From Halichondria panicea (taxonomy: Eukaryota; Porifera; Demospongiae; Suberitida; Halichondriidae), in contig NC_087386.1 of NCBI RefSeq assembly GCF_963675165.1, positions 6,139,566 through 6,203,565 on the forward strand: 64,000 bases of DNA, given 5' to 3'. This document shows, in pieces, positions 17,189 through 62,731 of this stretch; positions within the stretch are counted from its first letter, which is position 1, and each line of letters begins with the position of its first letter. Under the pieces are notes generated by a model, which saw nothing but the letters and a program-made list of their open reading frames with translations, had not been told where the DNA came from and searched no databases. A program made the translations under genes and the position numbers.

Positions 17189-17296
17189 CAACTTATACTC
17201 TTTGTGAATATAGACTAATAGTATTATTATAATAGAAAAGATGCCATTATTGACCATTGATCTATATAGGTGTGGCCATCATTATAGATGAATAGC
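17189..17296 (+). repeat. Left terminal inverted repeat of KDZ element
   Basis: Starts CAACTTATACTC and ends near TATAGATGAATAGC. It pairs with 26206-26313. Confidence 0.9.
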
Positions 17297-19688
17297 GTAA
17301 ATGGTTCCGGTGATCCGAGCACTGCACGTACCTCCAGGGAAGCAGCTCTGCCTAGCTAGCCCAATTGAAGTGGACTCTGCTGTGTGGGTAGTGTGCATGT
17401 AGATCTAAACATGGATAAAGATATTGAACACACTGAAGGTCAGTGGATCTCAGGTACTTGTATACACTTGACTCCAGTACTGAGTCCCAGACATCTGCAT
17501 GGGTGAGAGAAAAAATCTCGTCACCTGCACTTGTCGTCTGCTGGGCTAGTACACAATTCATAGCTGCATGTTCCCTCGTGTATATCCGAGACCACTGAAA
17601 TGTCTTAGTATCGTGATTATAATTACAGCCCCAGCCGGGAAAAATGAATTAGAATAATTATGAGCATGGCCGCCTCTATATATATGGTTGGGGATGGGGG
17701 ATGGGCGAGGCACGTCTATCTACACTATTAGAACCCCCAAATTGTGCTCGATCCAAGCTGGTGTTTATGGGCTACAGTTAGTCGTCTATAGTGTCAAGTG
17801 CAATCTCTAGTACACAGGTGGATGTACGGTTTGATTTTTGGCCTCTGTATTTTACTGCTGCATCTTATTGTAGAACTATTCATCATCAAAAAATGTTATG
17901 GGTCAAAAAAGTAAAGCCGGCTGCCTTGGTAGCACAAACACGCCTTTTTATAAGCGCCAATTAAAGTAACCGTTGGCGCTTTTCAGCGTTTAGGTCCTAA
18001 AAATTGCGTCAAGTCTGAGCTTATAATTATGGTGGCGCTGTATCAACTACGGTAGATGGACATCAGTTTGTAGCATTTGCAGAGGGAAACAAAAATCTGA
18101 TGTTTGCAATTTCAATTTAGTATTTTTGATGTTGTTTTGGAACATTGACCTTTTCGTTGCATCACTGATTCAGTTGACGTGTGCACTTCTAGCATGTACA
18201 TAGATGTATACCAAGTTTAATTATACACTGCAGTCCAACCTCGAAGGGGAAACCTAATCAACCTTGAACGTTGAATAAACCAGACTACCCTCCTAACTAC
18301 TGTCCATAGCAGCTAGGAAATGTTCGAGGCGCTTAAGTATGTCATGAACTGAATTGTAATTGAATTTCCTTGTTCGTGATTAGTCTGTATACCTTTATAA
18401 TTATATAGCTAACTCTAATATTAAGTGTGTACTATATTTATTTGTAGAACTACCAGTACTCAAAAGTTTGTATGCCCACTGCAGTGCTTTTTTTACATGT
18501 TGGTAAAGGGTCTCATGCATCTAGCCCATTCGCCTTCCACCCGCCTTTGTATTATTGATACAGACAGTATACCCAGGGCTTCATAGAGGTGGGACGCTCA
18601 CCCCCTGGCTACAATTTTCCCCCCCTGGCAATTGTAAAAGAAAATATAGGCCATAACACACAGTGTTACGGCCTGTGACACACCAACCAAACAAAAAACT
18701 CTGCCTAATTATTCAATATTGAGTTTTTTACGAAGCTCTGCTATTCTACTACTCTTTCTGTTCATACGTTCACAATTTATTCTTCTAAGTCACTTTCTGT
18801 AAGTACAGAGGGAGCGACTTTCATTAACTAATATAAGTGAGAAAGGCTTGTGTTGCTCAGGCTATGGCTTTTATCTAGTACCATTCAGCCTAGGCAACTG
18901 CATTTTTATTACATTCCCCAATGCTATTATAACAATAACCCTGACACTGACACCACAGTTCCTAAAAATGCACCAGATGCGATATACGACAGTCTAAACA
19001 CAAAACTTTCCTTGGGGCATGCCCCCAGACTCCCCCCTAGATGGCCATGTGCTAACACACACAGATAATCGCCTCGCCGCTCATTTTTCTAAAATGTTGA
19101 TTTTGCCCCCCCCCCCCCCCCCTGTCATTTTTCTGTATGAAGGCCTGATACCTAAAACTTTATCATAAAGCCTTATAAGTATCCAAATTACCCATCCCAT
19201 TGACAAATTGGGGGAGCAGAAAATTGTTGCCGTATAGCGCGATATTTTCGAAGCACTTATATTTCGTGGAATGGCCTCTAAAAGCATTCGTTGCACAATG
19301 TTCGCGGAATGACAGCTTATATATACCGGAATAATTATATATAGCAGATAATTCTAATTAAAGAACAATTTTCGTGGACTTAATGTTCGTGTAGGATTGC
19401 TAACCCACGAAATCCGCGAAAATTTCGCGCTATACGGTATACATAATTATGGCTACAATAATTATATGCAGCAATAATTGCTTTTGCGACGCTGCCCAAC
19501 TCAGTATTATGAATGTGGTCCACTAGTGGTTACAACCGCTGAAGGGTGACAACCTGCATGGGCCCTTTTAGTGGGTTGCAACTATAGTCGATCAGTTACA
19601 GTGAGTGTATCCATTGTTAATTAACAGCCTGAATTTCATTATTGTTGTCTTTTACCCTGTTTAAAGTGTCGTTAAAATTATTTTGTAG
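17297..19688. other. KDZ element left interior, no gene assigned
   Basis: I see no exon with support. It may hold the promoter or 5' exons of the plus-strand protein. A Cys-containing stretch after an acceptor at about 19465 (NNCFCDA) hints at a decayed exon. It also holds a C-homopolymer at 19107-19122 and the MITE at 19230-19437. Confidence 0.4.
19230..19437. mobile_element. 208 bp MITE with CCGTATAGC ends
   Basis: Inverted ends CCGTATAGCGCGATATTTTCG and its near reverse complement, with TA on the right and TG on the left. It is related to the element at 28595-29078 and is inserted inside the KDZ transposon. Confidence 0.7.
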
Positions 19689-20369
19689 AAATCCATGCCA
19701 CCCCAAGACGACGGTGTCAATGTGGAGAATACTGTCATATTCGTTGTAATAAATTTCCCTCCTGTAAGGCCGTTTTTCCACCTTCCCATAAGAAACTGGC
19801 TGTAGGAGAGCCAAGAAAGTATCCTGCGGATCTATTGGCACAACTTCACAAAAAGGTTGAGTGGAATTACATTGGAATTGTTGCCGGACTTTAAACAATA
19901 ATTATAACCAGTTATCAGCACATTGATTATAATTACATAGTGATAATTATACTACTTGCATGTATGATTGTTGCACACTTATGCAAGTTAATTGCATGGC
20001 TGAAGTGATGTATCATGCTTATAGCTACCAACATAATTATGATCAGAGACAAAATCTACAACTGATGCACAGTATGCATGCGTTCGATACTTTCTTCTCT
20101 CTTTTATTATGGACTCTTTCTATAATTGTGATGTCTCACACATGGTACATTTATTTATGAATGTTAACTTTGTTTTTGTGTTCCTCCAGGCAAACCAGTT
20201 GCACCAACTTGGATATGATGTCTTTATCGTTACGCATAGGTATTCCAAAGTACACACTTATCAAAGAATCACTACACCTGGTGCAGCTAAGGAGTTCAGT
20301 CATAAATATGAAAACGTTTTTCAATTGTGGAAGTCTTACATGAATGTGAAACCCAATACTACCCTAACT

Positions 20370-21272
20370 AACAGTTCCACCCTCTCTACTAGCCCTACCA
20401 GTCAACCTGCTGCCGACTCTAACAGTGCCCCGACACAGGAAAATGTTCCCATCAACACTAACAGTTCCACCCTCTCTACTAGCCCTACCAGTCAGCCTGC
20501 TGCCGTCTCTAACAGTGCCCCGACACAGGAAAATGTTCCCATCAACACTAACAGTTCCACCCTCTCTACTAGCCCTACCAGTCAGCCTGCTGCCGTCTCT
20601 AACAGTGCCCCGACACAGGAAAATGTTTCCATCAACACTAACAGTTCCACCCTCTCTACTAGCCCTACCAGTCAGCCTGCTGCCGTCTCTAACAGTGCCC
20701 CGACACAGGAAAATGTTTCCATCAACACTAACAGTTCCACCCTCTCTACTAGCCCTACCAATCAGCCTGCTGCCGACTCTAACAGTGCCCCGACACAGGA
20801 AAATGTTTCCATCAACACTAACAGTTCCACCCTCTCTACTAGCCCTACCAGTCAGCCTGCTGCCGACTCTAACAGTGCCCCGACACAGGAAAATGTTCCC
20901 ATCAACACTAACAGTTCCACCCTCTCTACTAGCCCTACCAGTCAGCCTGCTGCCGTCTCTAACAGTGCCCCGACACAGGAAAACGTTCCCATCAACACTA
21001 ACAGTTCCACCCTCTCTACTAGCCCTACCAGTCAGCCTGCTGCCGACTCTAACAGTGCCCCGACACAGGAAAATGTTCCCATCAACACTAACAGTTCCAC
21101 CCTCTCTACTAGCCCTACCAGTCAGCCTGCTGCCGACTCTAACAGTGCCCCGACACAGGAAAATGTTCCCATCAACACTAACAGTTCCACCCTCTCTACT
21201 AGCCCTACCAGTCAGCCTGCTGCTGCTGTCTCTAACAGTGCCCCGACACAGGAAAATGTTCCCATCAACACT
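20370..21272 (+). repeat. 90 bp coding minisatellite, ten copies
   Basis: Ten tandem 90 bp units (starts at 20370, 20460, 20550 and so on) are nearly identical and are followed by a partial unit. Each encodes 30 residues rich in Ser, Thr, Pro and Asn. The few differences (Asp/Val in one position, Pro/Ser in another) point to recent amplification. Confidence 0.95.
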
Positions 21273-21399
21273 AACAGTTCCACCCTCTCTATACTAGCCC
21301 TACCAGTCAGCCTGCTGCTGCTGTCTCTAACAGTGCCCCGACACCGGCAACAGTTACTGTCTTCACTACCACCCTAACTGATAGAAAGAAACGTCGTCG

Positions 21400-21496
21400 T
21401 TGCGGTGTCTGCGATGGGTGCCGACATCCTAATTGTGGTACATGCCCGACATGCTTAAATCAGAAATGGAAAAAGGCATGTTTAAAAAGACATTGC
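21400..21496 (+). other. CXXC-type zinc-finger coding segment
   Basis: Eight cysteines with spacing C-x2-C-x2-C-x4-C-x2-C-x2-C-x8-C-x4-C, flanked by basic residues (RKKRRR before, KRHCHNK at the end). It is in frame with its own stop but out of frame with the preceding repeats because of the TA insertion. Confidence 0.8.
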
Positions 21497-21621
21497 CATA
21501 ATAAGAATTAATTTGTGAATTGAACTGATAATATATAGTGTATTGCTATATAGCTCATAGTAATTATTATTCATTAATTTAGTATCATAATTTCATGCAG
21601 TCAGTTGGTTACTCAAACTAT

Positions 21622-24600
21622 CAATATTCATAATCATCACTATCGTTCTCTGAGTCATTATCTTCCACTATCATGAGATATGCAAGCTGGTCATTTTCGC
21701 TGAACGTAGGTTCATTCTTAAACTCTTGAACAGCACAATTGAGGTGCTTAGCAGCATCACTGAGGCCACTCCTCTTAATAGCCAAAAGTCCATCCAAAGT
21801 TCGTTTGTTCTTGGTTAGGACTGCATATTTCTGCATGTACATACGCATATGCATAATATCAATAGGTTATATAGTTTACGTTTGAACAAGCTGAAGGTGT
21901 TGTACTAGTGACACTAGAAGACAGGCCATCATCGCTGGATATATCTAAAGACTGAATATCAGCTGTAATACCTGCATGTGTATACAATAATATTACTGTT
22001 ATAGTGTGATAATTATATCTATGAATCTGATTGAATTATGCTACGCTGAGCATCTACCCCCTACCAATGGTAACTCACTTTCAAACTAGTACTTTTTAGC
22101 AAGCCAGACAAAATTATCTACAAAATCTTTAGTTTCCCAAACATGCATGTCTGGGGAAATATCAAAGGGAATTATCATAGTTAAGTTATACCCTGGACAT
22201 AATTTAAGGCTATCCCAGCTGTTAGGACCTAAGTGGTTGCTAAGTGGTTTGTGGCCTAGATGTTTACCTTAGATGACCCTAATCTGGAAAAGATTGTGAT
22301 ATTGAAATCTATAATACATGCAGTACATACACATGTTAATACGTATACACAATCGTTTACCACTTGTACTATCAAGCATAGCTATAGAGAGATGTAGGAA
22401 CAACAACTACAGGTACGTTCGTAACATACCTTGAATATCACATTCAAGCTTATTTGGTACAGAACTTTTAAAGTACATCAAGTACTGGGTCATCTCCAAC
22501 AGTAGCAGTGATTCTTCTTCTTTCAGTCGCTGAATTTGGTTGTACACAGTAGAAATTTTGTGCTTTTCTTGTACTGACACACAATAGCGACCTGATCGAA
22601 AGAGTTCAAGCCGGTCACAGTGTATACCTATATGCTGGACTATAACTAGCTTACTTGAAAGGGATGACCAAGGAAAGTTCCCTGATAAAATGTCTTCGTC
22701 TATGGCTTGAGGCAGTTCCATGTTGTATTGCTGTATGAGATCATTGTACTGCTTTGCCAATTTCTTGAGTTTTTTGTGGTCATTTGATATTGCTTTCCTG
22801 AGTTTTGCCCGTTGTTTGCTAGTAGCTGCACAATTTCATGCTCATAAAACACAACCATGCACATTTAATAAACATACTGGACAGCTTTTGAATGTTGGCA
22901 TGCCTCCTTTGAGCTGTTAAGTACCCTAATTCTATACGTTCCTTAAACTTGCATGTGGCTGCTCTTGCTGCAGCTAGTTCACACTCGGTATCAACTTGAT
23001 CCGGAGAAATGGCATTTGATTGCACTATCGTACTCTTTAATTCAGACATCCGTCGCTGGTGGTGAGAGTCACATGAAAGAGAAAAGTTTTTCAGCCTCAG
23101 CATACAGCTGTTCATTGCCTATAATATTATTATTATTATATTATTATTATAGATAAAGGCTATAGCTGCATATACCTGTTAAAATACTCATTGCTGAATT
23201 AGATCCTCTAACCAGTGGCTGCAACTGTATTGCAGTGTCGTTCGACATCTTCAGTTGGAAGTAGTCAACTCTTTGCTGTTCGCAATCAATTATATCACCA
23301 CCTGAACATTCTCCTAAAAATTAATGTTAACCACAAATGAAGCTATTTACCAGACAGAAATTATAATTACATATTCCTTGCGATTTCTTGCACCTCTTGA
23401 CGGCATTGTTCGCAATATTCAGGGGTCAGATCCTTACTAACTTTATCTTGAAGGAGAAGCAATTCTTTTTTGAGTTCACCCAGATCACGTCGAGTCTACA
23501 GTAGTTAATAAACACACAAAATAGCGTATATGCAAACAAGTAACACACCTTGTTTAAGCGACACTTCAAGTAGCTTGGAAGACTACTGATCTTTCTATCA
23601 TTCCAAAACATTGCTGCTTCTGTTAGCTGTTCTTCTCGGCCTAATAGATAACCACTAATTATTTAGCAAAAATATAATCACACACCAGCTGCATTCATGT
23701 ACTTTGTTGTTAAGTTGAAACGACTGAGATAGCTAAAGAGCTGCTCCATTTCTTCCCCAGCTCCAGCTGCTGAATTTGGCTGCCACCTTCCACCCCATAA
23801 TACCTGTACATTACAATGTGTTATGAGAACTTTACAATAGTTAAAAATAACCTACCTGACAATGCCATGAGTGAGCTTTAGCGTGCATCACAGACAAACA
23901 TGGTTGGGAAGACATTGCGTCTTTAGTCTCGGGACAGGAGTTCACCTTTGATTTGGCCCAGGGCCAATACTGACACATAACGTCGGCCCAAACACACTTC
24001 GCTTTAGAAAAGTACTTTGTGTGGAGGTAATGAGGATATCCAAATCTACAAGGAAGGTTAATTTTTCCATCTAGCATTATTACTATAAGAATCTACCACT
24101 TACATCTCTCCTCGAAAGCTTTCAAAGCTAAGGCATGCCTGCATCCTGCCACCTCCAAGCCAGTCTCATCAAGATTGGCCATTGTCTTCGAGACAGCTTT
24201 GGCAGCTCCAGCGAGTAGTTCCACACAATCCAGAACTTTCTATTGTCTTCTTGATTCAAGATAAATTATATAATAGTGGAAAATGCAAAGTGAATAGATT
24301 GAAACTTACCTCATCAAAGTATCCCAGCACATCTATATGCGTATCTACCTCTTCGTTTTGCACAATGAATCCTCCATCGTAATACTGAGTGTTCGAGCCT
24401 CTACAATTAAATGGAAACCGTATCACATATTGCACGTAAGTTGATCTAGTACTTACCTGGGGACTTTGCTATATCTGTAGTTTTTTGTTACCATCAAAAT
24501 GAACAGAATGCTGTTCTGGTGTGCAGCACGGACATTCAAATAGTGGAGAATGCTTTAGTTCACCAATAGAGAACTTGCTGTAGCGCCACTCCCGGAAAGC

Positions 24601-26095
24601 CTTTCCAAATGTTGCAGGATTTAGTGATCCGACCTGTAAAACATATAATTAGAAGGCCATGAGACAGCATGATGAGCACTTACTCGTCCTTTCGACAAAG
24701 AAAATTGCTCTAGTGTTCTCAGAAAACCCACTTCAGACAAACCAGGATTATGTTTCTTCAACAGATTGTAAAAGAGGAACAAATCAGTATCAAAGATGTG
24801 TGCGGATTTTCGTGCAGGATTACCAGGCCAATATTGCTCTCTTATTACATCATGGGGCGTTTCTAAGTGGATTTCTTGTCCACAGTTGTCACAAATCGGA
24901 AGAACATCATTCAAGTCATAGCGTCCTAACTTGTATTTATAATAACACTGAAGATTGAACACTTTTTACAGTACCTCTTAAATTCACTACAATCCTTTTT
25001 GACTCTCTGGGACAAACCGTCACTGTTCCGATACTACAAAGAGGATATCTCCATGGAATGCTGAACGGAATGCATACCCCTGCATGTAACAACAAAAATT
25101 GTCATCTAAATTGTTGTGAAAGTGAACTGTCCATACTTTGAGTAGAAAGTAGAGTTGAGTCAGCTTCACAGCCAATAGTTGTTGGTGGTATTGCCCTAAA
25201 TATACCATCATACCACACTTCACGATCATGCAAAGGCTGGTGCTTATGAGCTACGACATCACAGATATTGCACATGTACTGTGAAGCGCCGCACTGATGA
25301 CATCGAATTTGAGGACTTTCGTCACCACACATAAAACAAGCCTATAGTAGAGTATACATGGAAATAAGTCTTTATGGTCATCATAACTTACAGAATCAGC
25401 AGGCATTGAAGAGTACATGACTACTTCTTCAAACAATTTGCTGCGGAATGCTTCCCAGTTCTCCTCGCGGGTATCCATACGTTTTCGCCAATCTGATTTT
25501 GGGTGGTTATCTGCTATGGACACATCAATGCTCTGGAGCAGGTCATCTAGCCTCATCTGATTATCTGATACTATAACAGAATGTAAATACATATACCATA
25601 ATTATAATTATTTCCGACAGACTCTACTCGTACTCGTAACGCCAGAACAGTCGCAACATAAGTATAATTGTACTGGCAAAGTCAATACTAACCTGAATCC
25701 TCTGTCTCTGACAGCTGAACATCACCAAACTCAAAGCCAGGGTCAACACATTGGTCTTCTAAAAACAGATATCAAAATAAATATAATTATTGTGCCAGCT
25801 CAGTGCTCATACCAGTGGCCGACGTGTGAAGAGGTACTGTGTCACGAGGCGGTGGTACTCTACCCCGCTTTCTTTTAGTTTTAGACACAGTTGTGTTAAA
25901 CTTAGCCGTTTTGCTTGTTGTTCTCACACTTGTGTCGTGGGTATATACTCTTTGAGCTTGATTTCCTCTCTTGTTGGGTCTCAGTAGTAGCAGTTCAGAA
26001 TCTAGGTCATTTTCAAGGGCTACACTGTCCTGCTTTTGCCTGTGCTTTTTTCTTTGCTGCCTCAACTTGGACACTTCAGCTTCTAGAGGATCCAT
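21622..26095 (-). pseudogene. KDZ-family transposase, ~18 exons, frameshifted
   Basis: Starts at 26095 (MDPLEAEVSKLRQQRKKHRQ) and ends at 21622 (DDYEY). Order of parts: basic coiled N-terminus; CxC-type zinc cluster at 25343-25120 (ACFMCG, RCHQCG, YMCNICDVVAHKHQPLHDRE); REQYWPGNPARKSAHIFDTD segment (24940-24640); catalytic-core landmarks HFDGN (24500), LDETGLEVAGCRHALALKA (24180), FRGE, VMCQYWPW and MHAKAHSWHCQ (23990-23860), GEEMEQLFSYLSRF (23760), AAMFWNDRK; then a helical C-terminus. These match the KDZ (Kyakuja-Dileera-Zisupton) transposases, an RNase H-fold superfamily. Comparing motifs shows frame breaks near 24487 (loss of TA), near 24116 (one base, just before FRGE) and near 23070 (one extra base). 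A fourth doubtful join lies at 24965-24985. Introns are short with normal GT-AG ends. The element is therefore probably inactive. Confidence 0.85.
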
Positions 26096-26205
26096 TTCAG
26101 CTTAGTTGTTGCAGTTGGTGAGAGAGTTGTTGGAGGAGGTTGGATCGAGTCTCTTGCTGTAATAATCGGACCATGCGCTTTGCTGTACTGTGTGCTTCGC
26201 ATATT

Positions 26206-26313
26206 GGCTATTCATCTATAATGCATGATGGCCACACCTATATAGATCAATGTCAATAATGGCATCTTTTCTATTATATACTATTAGTCTATATTCATAA
26301 AGAGTATAAGTTG
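26206..26313 (-). repeat. Right terminal inverted repeat of KDZ element
   Basis: Reverse complement of the left terminal repeat, ending GAGTATAAGTTG. It is followed by C and the target copy ACGACC. Confidence 0.9.
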
Positions 26314-44689: not shown

Positions 44690-50054
<5,365 letters not shown>

Positions 50055-60638: not shown

Positions 60639-62731
60639 ATGGAGGAGCCACCAGCAAAGAAAGTCCGGGTCCATTTCGGGAGCCTGGAAGAGCAAGAGAA
60701 GAAGCGACTAGCCGAAGAAGCTGTTACAAAAAGCGAAGAATCTGATGCAACCAATAAAATAATTTCAGCAGCCGTACGGGCTGGAATTGAGGCTGGCAAT
60801 ATCAATATCGACATTGCAGAAGGTGAGAACCTTGTAGTAACGTCGTTGAGACTAGCTACTCTAATTGCAGCCCATGCACTCACTTTACATTCATTTTTAT
60901 AAGGGGTAGAGAAAAATTCCTGTTGCATGTGGGTTTGAACTATGGACCTCCCACGCTGTTTGTCAATACCTTCACCATTAGTCCAATCGAAACCTGTACA
61001 CATGTTCGTCCAATTATAAATGCTGATGAAGCTTAGTGGATGTATTTCTCACTATAAAACTTGTGGAGCAGATAGTATGGAATGTGTTATTGTCATTAGT
61101 TGTTTGCATGTGTGAGCGTCCTTCCAGTGGAAATTAGACAGCTCACGGTTTCAAAAATTATGCTTCCGAAATCTCTTGATTGTGATTCCGCAGAGGAGGA
61201 CCCTGTGCCATTAATAGCAAAAGCCCTTTTGTAATGAAACTGCTCTGTATGCCAGCTTTTATAGCAAGTCCTCTTGTCATGTATTTGTGGTATTGAGCTA
61301 TGAATATCGTCACTTTGATATCACAGATGAAGCCATGGAAGTGGCCACCATGCCTGACACTCGGCATCACGAGTTGATCGCTGAGTTTGAGCGAAGGAAG
61401 CAGGTATCACTATTACTGTCTAGTTAGATAATTATATGGAATACCTGAATTCAAATGAAATGCTCCAACCTTATTGCGTTGTTATGCGTGGTATAATTAT
61501 AGCTCTTATAATAATATCTCACTGCAACTGTGAAAATGTTCACCACAATACTAATTGTTATTGTCAATCAACCTGCAATGAAGCGCTCAATTGTATTGCA
61601 TTGTAATAGTTGCCATGGTGGCTGTCACTCACTGTCATCGTTTCCTCTCACAGGTGAAGACTATCGTGGTGCCTACAGACGATGCCAAGGTCAAGGCCAT
61701 TCTACGAGAGTACAGAGAGCCTATCTGTAAGTACAACACATACCGTGTAACTCGAAAATTTGGCGGGTATTATAATTATTTGGCGAATGAGCCATTTGAA
61801 TCGACACAACGTTTTAATCTGGTGTTTCAGGCGTGGCTACTACAGCAATGACGTTGTGTCCACTGGAAAATCGACGGTTTTATTTGGCGATTTTCAGTAA
61901 AATTCGGCAAATTTAAACACCCACCAACTGTTATAGTTATACAGTATATATGTACGTAAATAACTGATGCATTTCCATGCCAACAGGTTTATTTGGCGAG
62001 GGCCCAGCGAACAGACGACTCCGACTGAGAGCCCTGCTCAGTGAGCACGGTGAAGGGGGTGTGATCAGAGAAGAGCCTCCCCCGCAACCCTCCGCCCCCG
62101 AACCAGGCTCCAACAAGGTGTGGTATCACGAGGGACCAGCAGAGCTGATGGCTGCACGATACGCTGTGGCTGAATACTCAGTGGCAAGGTGTGTGCTATT
62201 ACCCTCATAACAACGTATCATAATTATAACTAATTTCATGCAATCTCATCTCCTTGGAGTAAACCTCTTGATCTAGAGGAGGTCTGACAGAGAGGCGTGA
62301 TGCAGCTCAAGCCATTAGCCTCTGATTACACTCAGCAATAATTGACGGCATAGGCGTAGTATAGTATGGGCGGATAATTAGTGTTCAATAAAAGACAAAT
62401 TACTAGAATTGCACCGCACCTGTCGTACATCCTCTACTCTTGATCTAGATGATACATGTGCGTCCAATTAAGTTTACATACAATTGAATGCATGCTAACT
62501 GCCAGGCATCCAAGCCAACAAAAGCCACTTCTCTACACTATTGTCCAATTAAGTTTGCATACAATTGAATCCCTTTACTGCATGATAACGGCCAGGTCCC
62601 AAATAACCTAACCTCCAACAAAAGCCACTTCTCTACACTATATAGTCAAAACGAAATTTATGAGTGTTCCACTGTAACATACCCACACACACATACATGC
62701 CCACACACACACACATACGTCCACCCACACA

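Follow-up and report, generated by a model that had tools for sequence, protein, structure and literature searches.

A stretch of 64,000 nucleotides from the sponge Halichondria panicea (NC_087386.1, contig C10 here; C10:6139566-6203565, hereafter the window) contained a 9.1-kb KDZ (Kyakuja-Dileera-Zisupton) transposon in which the transposase gene, on the minus strand, converges with a plus-strand gene ending in a CXXC-type zinc finger. The same pairing recurred in every coding copy of the element detected in the genome searched (131 Mb, 39 contigs), and the plus-strand gene was interrupted in all of them. We consider, at about even confidence, that these copies are the decayed remains of a low-copy, two-gene KDZ family whose plus-strand gene once made an accessory nuclear DNA-binding protein for the element.

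The terminal inverted repeats (TIRs) of the window copy (W) bounded the element at 17189 and 26313. The left (17189..17303, plus strand) and right (26200..26313, minus strand) TIRs, of approximately 115 bp, paired over four ungapped arms of 36, 27, 28, and 24 nt with 97, 100, 100, and 88% identity, respectively, and the two convergent genes each appeared to start just inside one TIR. The left TIR was also found in the copies on contigs C7 and C4; the right one was present in the C7 copy and missing from C4. An 8-bp target-site duplication, documented for Zisupton in passages of PMC12730594, was not seen at W or C7, the sole two copies with both ends; at W there was a 6-bp match at an offset. 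The initial annotation had described the element as complete, which held for its ends but not for its genes, since in W the KDZ frame was broken in exon 7, and the repeat array and the finger that follows it were in different reading frames.

The KDZ transposase gene (21621..26095, minus strand) comprised around 13 exons read between 26095 and 23377, with short introns, and further open stretches reaching 21621. Twelve of the 13 exons were located by typed exon pairs and exon 10 was read separately; for exons 4, 9, and 13, the 3' boundary is approximate. The identification as a KDZ transposase was confirmed by the PF18758 domain, which reached 28.7 bits in the genome scan when reading through one stop (cut-off 26.6; 22.5 and 13.2 bits, both below the cut-off, on single exons), and by the CxC3 cysteine cluster of exon 6 (24684..24947; PF18804, 55.6 bits in a Pfam search, cut-off 26.6). 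Another cysteine cluster, in exon 4 (25137..25341, 3' end approximate), gave no Pfam match over the cut-off. Candidates for the DDE residues were assigned by eye from motifs: presumably, the first catalytic Asp lies in exon 7 (24457..24633; HFDGN), whose frame is interrupted near its 3' end, the second Asp in exon 10 (23863..24045; ADVMCQYW), which is open, and the Glu in exon 11 (23686..23803; GEEMEQ), located by an exon pair.

On the plus strand, a candidate exon 1 (17411..17438; MDKDIEHTE) would start with an ATG just inside the left TIR, followed by a donor site in a phase fitting exon 2; its sequence persisted in C7 and C4, apart from a 6-nt difference that preserves the frame, but C7 had lost the start codon. 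Exon 2 (19689..19855), open in W and C4, encodes a cysteine ribbon in which one Cys of C7 and C4 corresponds to Phe in W. Profile searches with the ribbon retrieved no family over the cut-off and no convincing solved relative, and no enzyme domain over the cut-off was recognised by profile search in the protein of the plus-strand gene. The long last exon 3 (20190..21511), with an acceptor in phase 0, contains a coding tandem array (20367..21344; 10.8 copies of a 90-bp unit) of 30-residue repeats rich in Ser, Thr, Pro, and Asn, then the finger (21383..21496), from which the array is separated in W by a frame shift. The finger of W showed eight cysteines in CXXC spacing and scored 27.5 bits with PF02008 (cut-off 26.5, E 3.2e-6; 27.3 bits in the genome scan); thus, the second gene does end, as initially annotated, in a CXXC finger, and the sub-threshold score named beforehand as a refutation was avoided, if narrowly.

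Three further coding copies were obtained by DNA search of the genome, making four with W: C7:4560108-4569382, which has both TIRs; C4:2741203-2749800, which retains the left TIR but has lost the right end past KDZ exon 3 as well as around 1 kb of internal sequence; and C10b (C10:3653319-3659168), in pieces in both orientations. One more place (L048, C14:5076590-5077989) matched the left non-coding part alone and was left out of the count. The plus-strand gene with finger sequence and the KDZ gene were present in four of four coding copies; copies lacking the former, named beforehand as a sign against the pairing, were not among them. In C7 and C4 the order left TIR, plus-strand gene, KDZ gene was the same as in W, which indicated that the plus-strand gene belongs to the mobile unit. 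C7, C4, and C10b carried small length changes in this gene other than those of W, and C7 an additional insertion in the repeat array, although assembly errors may account for some of these frame interruptions. The lesions seen varied from copy to copy, pointing to a parent element with an open plus-strand gene. Outside W, PF02008 gave 30.7 bits (over the cut-off) for the truncated finger of C10b and 17.5 bits for C7, and C4 was not listed.

Substitutions between copies were few. For the plus-strand gene, comparison of W with C7, C4, and C10b gave 1, 1, and 2 synonymous and 6, 4, and 4 non-synonymous differences (rate ratios of 1.65, 1.11, and 0.58, respectively; 91 to 125 synonymous sites). 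For the KDZ gene, values were 6 synonymous and 11 non-synonymous (ratio 0.49) against C7, 5 and 14 (0.77) against C10b, where one exon was in part a short chance alignment, and 7 and 8 (0.29) against C4, a ratio that is unreliable owing to short chance alignments where an exon is missing. The counts for both genes are too small to be decisive, and some of the differences may reflect decay of the copies once inserted.

The pairing did not extend to other KDZ elements. Scanning the genome with PF18758 (E up to 0.01, matches within 3 kb merged) gave 59 matches in 30 loci, which did not include the C4 and C10b copies, and PF02008 (E up to 1) gave 37 matches. No CXXC match lay within 42 kb at 28 of the 30 KDZ loci; the two others were W and C7, of the same family. 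The plus-strand gene as a common partner of KDZ elements was accordingly ruled out, and the KDZ-CXXC pairing is restricted to a single family of few copies.

When the protein sequence of exons 2 and 3 was used as a query, 35 matches were obtained in the genome, of which 12 were in the four element copies. Contig C1 harbored 18 exon-2 places (41-57% identity) and five exon-3 places (38%), all between 1.18 and 4.85 Mb; because of their confinement to one stretch, the members of this cluster were taken as host genes. The one member that was read (L079) had an intron at the same position and phase as the plus-strand gene, and its last exon ended without a finger. No zf-CXXC match (E up to 1) was found by the genome profile scan in the main part of the cluster (1.18-2.93 Mb), and one weak match below the cut-off (21.8 bits) was located at C1:3400244, within the wider stretch. 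The initial annotation was right about the finger of the partner gene and missed the kinship of exons 2 and 3, and a mere CXXC protein was ruled out, these exons being part of the wider C1 family. The protein of this family is unnamed; in L079 the ribbon has the form C-x2-C-x3-C-x3-C-x2-C-x2-C, with no Pfam match over the cut-off. When exon 2 of C4 and exon 3 of W were compared with L079, 43, 39, and 65 of 101 codons differed at positions 1, 2, and 3, respectively. The surplus of differences at position 3 was 0.238 (0.119 to 0.351 as the 95% interval by bootstrap), which indicated protein-level constraint along some or all of the line linking the element and L079. As to the direction of transfer, we infer that the element more likely captured a C1-type host gene than gave rise to one.

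The possibility that the captured gene (transduplication) was carried along as a passenger, never functional for the element, is the main rival and deserves serious consideration, even if we hold it only tentatively. It agrees with the homologous cluster on C1, with the restriction of the pairing to a single family among the KDZ loci, with the interruption of the plus-strand gene in all four copies, none of which was seen intact, and with the differences among copies, which show no clear constraint on this gene. The last two points weigh against an accessory protein, as do three others: the finger of W exceeds the PF02008 cut-off only marginally; all eight cysteines were kept in W alone, the finger being damaged in C7 and C4 and its end lost in C10b; and the position-3 excess could stem from the C1 branch alone. 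A mere passenger fits less well with the retention of the exons and the finger sequence in every coding copy, with a convergent layout that is the mirror image of the KDZ gene, the start candidate lying directly inside the TIR, and with the eight cysteines kept by the W finger although the last exon of the C1 member examined lacks a finger. Flow in the opposite direction, with the transposon gene seeding the C1 family (domestication and tandem growth) and the finger then being lost, appears very doubtful. Homology with a shared intron carries no direction, and the weak CXXC match at C1:3400244 counts in favor of this reading; however, 18 exon-2 places in one C1 stretch, none of them at detected KDZ loci, resemble an ordinary clustered family, and the main stretch yielded no CXXC match. 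That the plus-strand gene is a host gene or another repeat lying by chance inside or beside the element is hardly credible: the left part does harbor nested repeats, but the order of left TIR, plus-strand gene, and KDZ gene repeated at C7 and C4, and in pieces at C10b, already contradicts it.

The initial annotation had further proposed that the finger reads unmethylated CpG, directing the element to such DNA or protecting it there, and this proposal fared poorly. The nearest solved relatives were indeed the CXXC domains of TET3 (phmmer, E 9.3e-7) and DNMT1 (E 4e-5), with identity to DNMT1 (3pt6) at 22 of 39 aligned positions, the highest among 11 fingers compared; leaving cysteines aside, identities were 12 of 31 with TET and 14 of 31 with DNMT1, values that do not single out either as the source of the finger. 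The linker between C6 and C7, however, had the length of that in TET3, seven residues fewer than in DNMT1, and sequence comparison revealed neither the KFGG motif nor the KQ/RQ dipeptide, the criteria of CpG-binding type-1 fingers. With regard to type-3 criteria, the short linker was present and the HQ dipeptide missing. The dipeptide position was occupied by Lys-Lys, the Gln being replaced by Lys. According to passages of PMC3685328, KQ or RQ of type-1 CXXC contacts CpG and type-3 fingers have HQ there; the same passages report binding of unmethylated cytosine by the Xenopus TET3 CXXC even though it has no KFGG. By contrast, excerpts of PMC3032784 describe no specific DNA binding for the mouse Tet1 CXXC and, by the account given there, for MBD1 CXXC1/2, all without KFGG.

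The genome itself would offer a setting for CpG reading, with a DNMT1-like gene having its own CXXC (C1, 18.04 Mb), a second DNMT-like gene on C12, three TET_JBP matches (PF12851) placed together on C15 and preceded, at a distance of around 6 kb, by a CXXC in the same orientation, and CpG depletion (observed/expected ratio of 0.57 in the window). The DNMT and TET matches are consistent with an animal genome. That TET-adjacent finger (L089) also has a short linker, one residue longer than that of the KDZ-borne finger, and no HQ; conservation of the dipeptide may therefore be more relaxed in this genome. Nevertheless, the element is not CpG-rich: its ratio of 0.53 was below both the value for the window (0.57) and the median for the sequence around it (0.59, from 52 overlapping 2-kb segments), which does not suggest a CpG island. 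A CpG reader is in our opinion quite unlikely. CpG specificity is not supported, because the finger lacks both KFGG and the KQ/RQ/HQ dipeptide, whereas it may still bind DNA, because TET3 binds without KFGG and the host TET-adjacent finger also lacks HQ. Under the accessory-protein reading that we prefer, the finger would contact DNA, probably with a relaxed or altered sequence preference since the CpG-reading dipeptide is gone, and the cysteine ribbon would offer a putative binding surface. Such a protein might have aided the transposase at the ends of the element or at target chromatin, or might have countered host silencing.

CXXC fingers were also borne by multicopy repeats unrelated to KDZ that contain a SWIM finger, at C1:10399500 (L044), C8:3789326 (L040), and C6:1542454 (L041). 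L044 and L040 were 91% identical over approximately 2 kb. In L044 the SWIM finger reached 26.2 bits (cut-off 19.6) and was accompanied by a type-1 CXXC of 44.3 bits with KFGG and KQ, together with an OTU match of 21.8 bits, below the cut-off of 23.3; in L041 a sub-threshold SWIM match (15.8 bits) was found with a type-1 CXXC of 57.6 bits, again with KFGG and KQ. We read these repeats as similar to Mutator-like elements (MULE-like), a label suggested by the SWIM finger and the sequence and not by the score of a MULE domain. Transposons thus probably took up CXXC at least twice in the H. panicea genome. It appears unlikely that the unrelated KDZ and SWIM-containing MULE-like transposons, after independent uptake, used CXXC to steer insertion to unmethylated CpG or to keep methyltransferase off it; if they did, they would be to animals what the TET-carrying transposons are to fungi, but would read methylation instead of erasing it.

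Other CXXC matches may also belong to repeats. Eight matches, all of 23.3 bits, were located at C1:10370176, C1:17056227, C5:4806080, C11:6223541, 6260975, 6319067, and 6389111, and C17:3903883; the one examined (L092) was a degenerate relative of the L044 finger, 83% identical, and the eight may form a non-autonomous set. The CXXC at C10:3567916, C28:72015, and C1:11422041 (L084, L088, and L090, respectively) were near-identical where overlapping, with KNGG instead of KFGG, and are possibly another repeat-borne finger. At C5:3665395 (L043), an open frame resembling by eye a reverse-transcriptase fragment lay beside a CXXC repeat. Within the element, the left non-coding part included a nested multicopy repeat (18619..19148; positions 1431-1960 of the element query) and a repeat similar to a miniature inverted-repeat transposable element (19226..19443), with its own inverted repeats at 19230-19250 and 19417-19437, both matching many other genomic places. 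Elsewhere in the window, a U11 minor-spliceosome snRNA gene was found at 61112-61231 (minus strand; 86.2 bits), and a G-rich tandem repeat of 63 bp (3.8 copies) at 45076-45315, where the GC skew is strongly positive.

The initial annotation was not aware of any description of the pairing, and a literature search, covering mostly titles, beginnings of abstracts, and passages, yielded no publication combining KDZ and CXXC. CXXC was not mentioned in the excerpts of PMC12730594 and PMC12062965, nor KDZ in those of PMC12460157; a search for SWIM, CXXC, MULE, and transposase gave nothing related by title. The fungal precedent invoked by the initial annotation, KDZ elements with TET/JBP genes, is real according to passages of PMC12730594, but did not extend to the content of the present element, as no TET/JBP gene was found between its TIRs or near it, the PF12851 matches of the genome scan being on C15 only. 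According to the same article, fungal KDZ and other TET/JBP-carrying transposons are thought to escape methylation-based silencing. The KDZ-borne finger and the second CXXC-carrying repeat suggest that animal DNA transposons, too, take up chromatin and methylation modules, and the finger of the KDZ element is a concrete protein domain to assay. The significance of this is limited by the lost CpG-reading residues of that finger and by the decay of the copies.

Compared with known systems, the element shares with KDZ transposons the KDZ domain, the CxC3 cluster, and the TIRs, and differs from them in carrying a CXXC-finger gene and in the lack of a visible 8-bp target-site duplication. With the fungal TET+ KDZ transposons, as presented in passages of PMC12730594, it has in common that the transposase gene is joined by another gene with kinship to DNA-methylation proteins; in fungi this gene encodes a TET/JBP dioxygenase, whereas in H. 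panicea it encodes a CXXC-type finger and a cysteine ribbon, with no enzyme domain over the cut-off. Among the CXXC classes, the finger resembles type 3 (TET1, TET3, CXXC4, and CXXC5) in its short C6-C7 linker without KFGG, TET3 being also the best PDB match, but has Lys-Lys in place of HQ. It resembles the type-1 finger of DNMT1 in more than half of the aligned residues and differs from it in the absence of the KFGG segment and the Gln. The SWIM-containing MULE-like repeats (L041 and L044) likewise bear a CXXC finger on a transposon, although the repeat is unrelated and the finger is of type 1, with KFGG and KQ.

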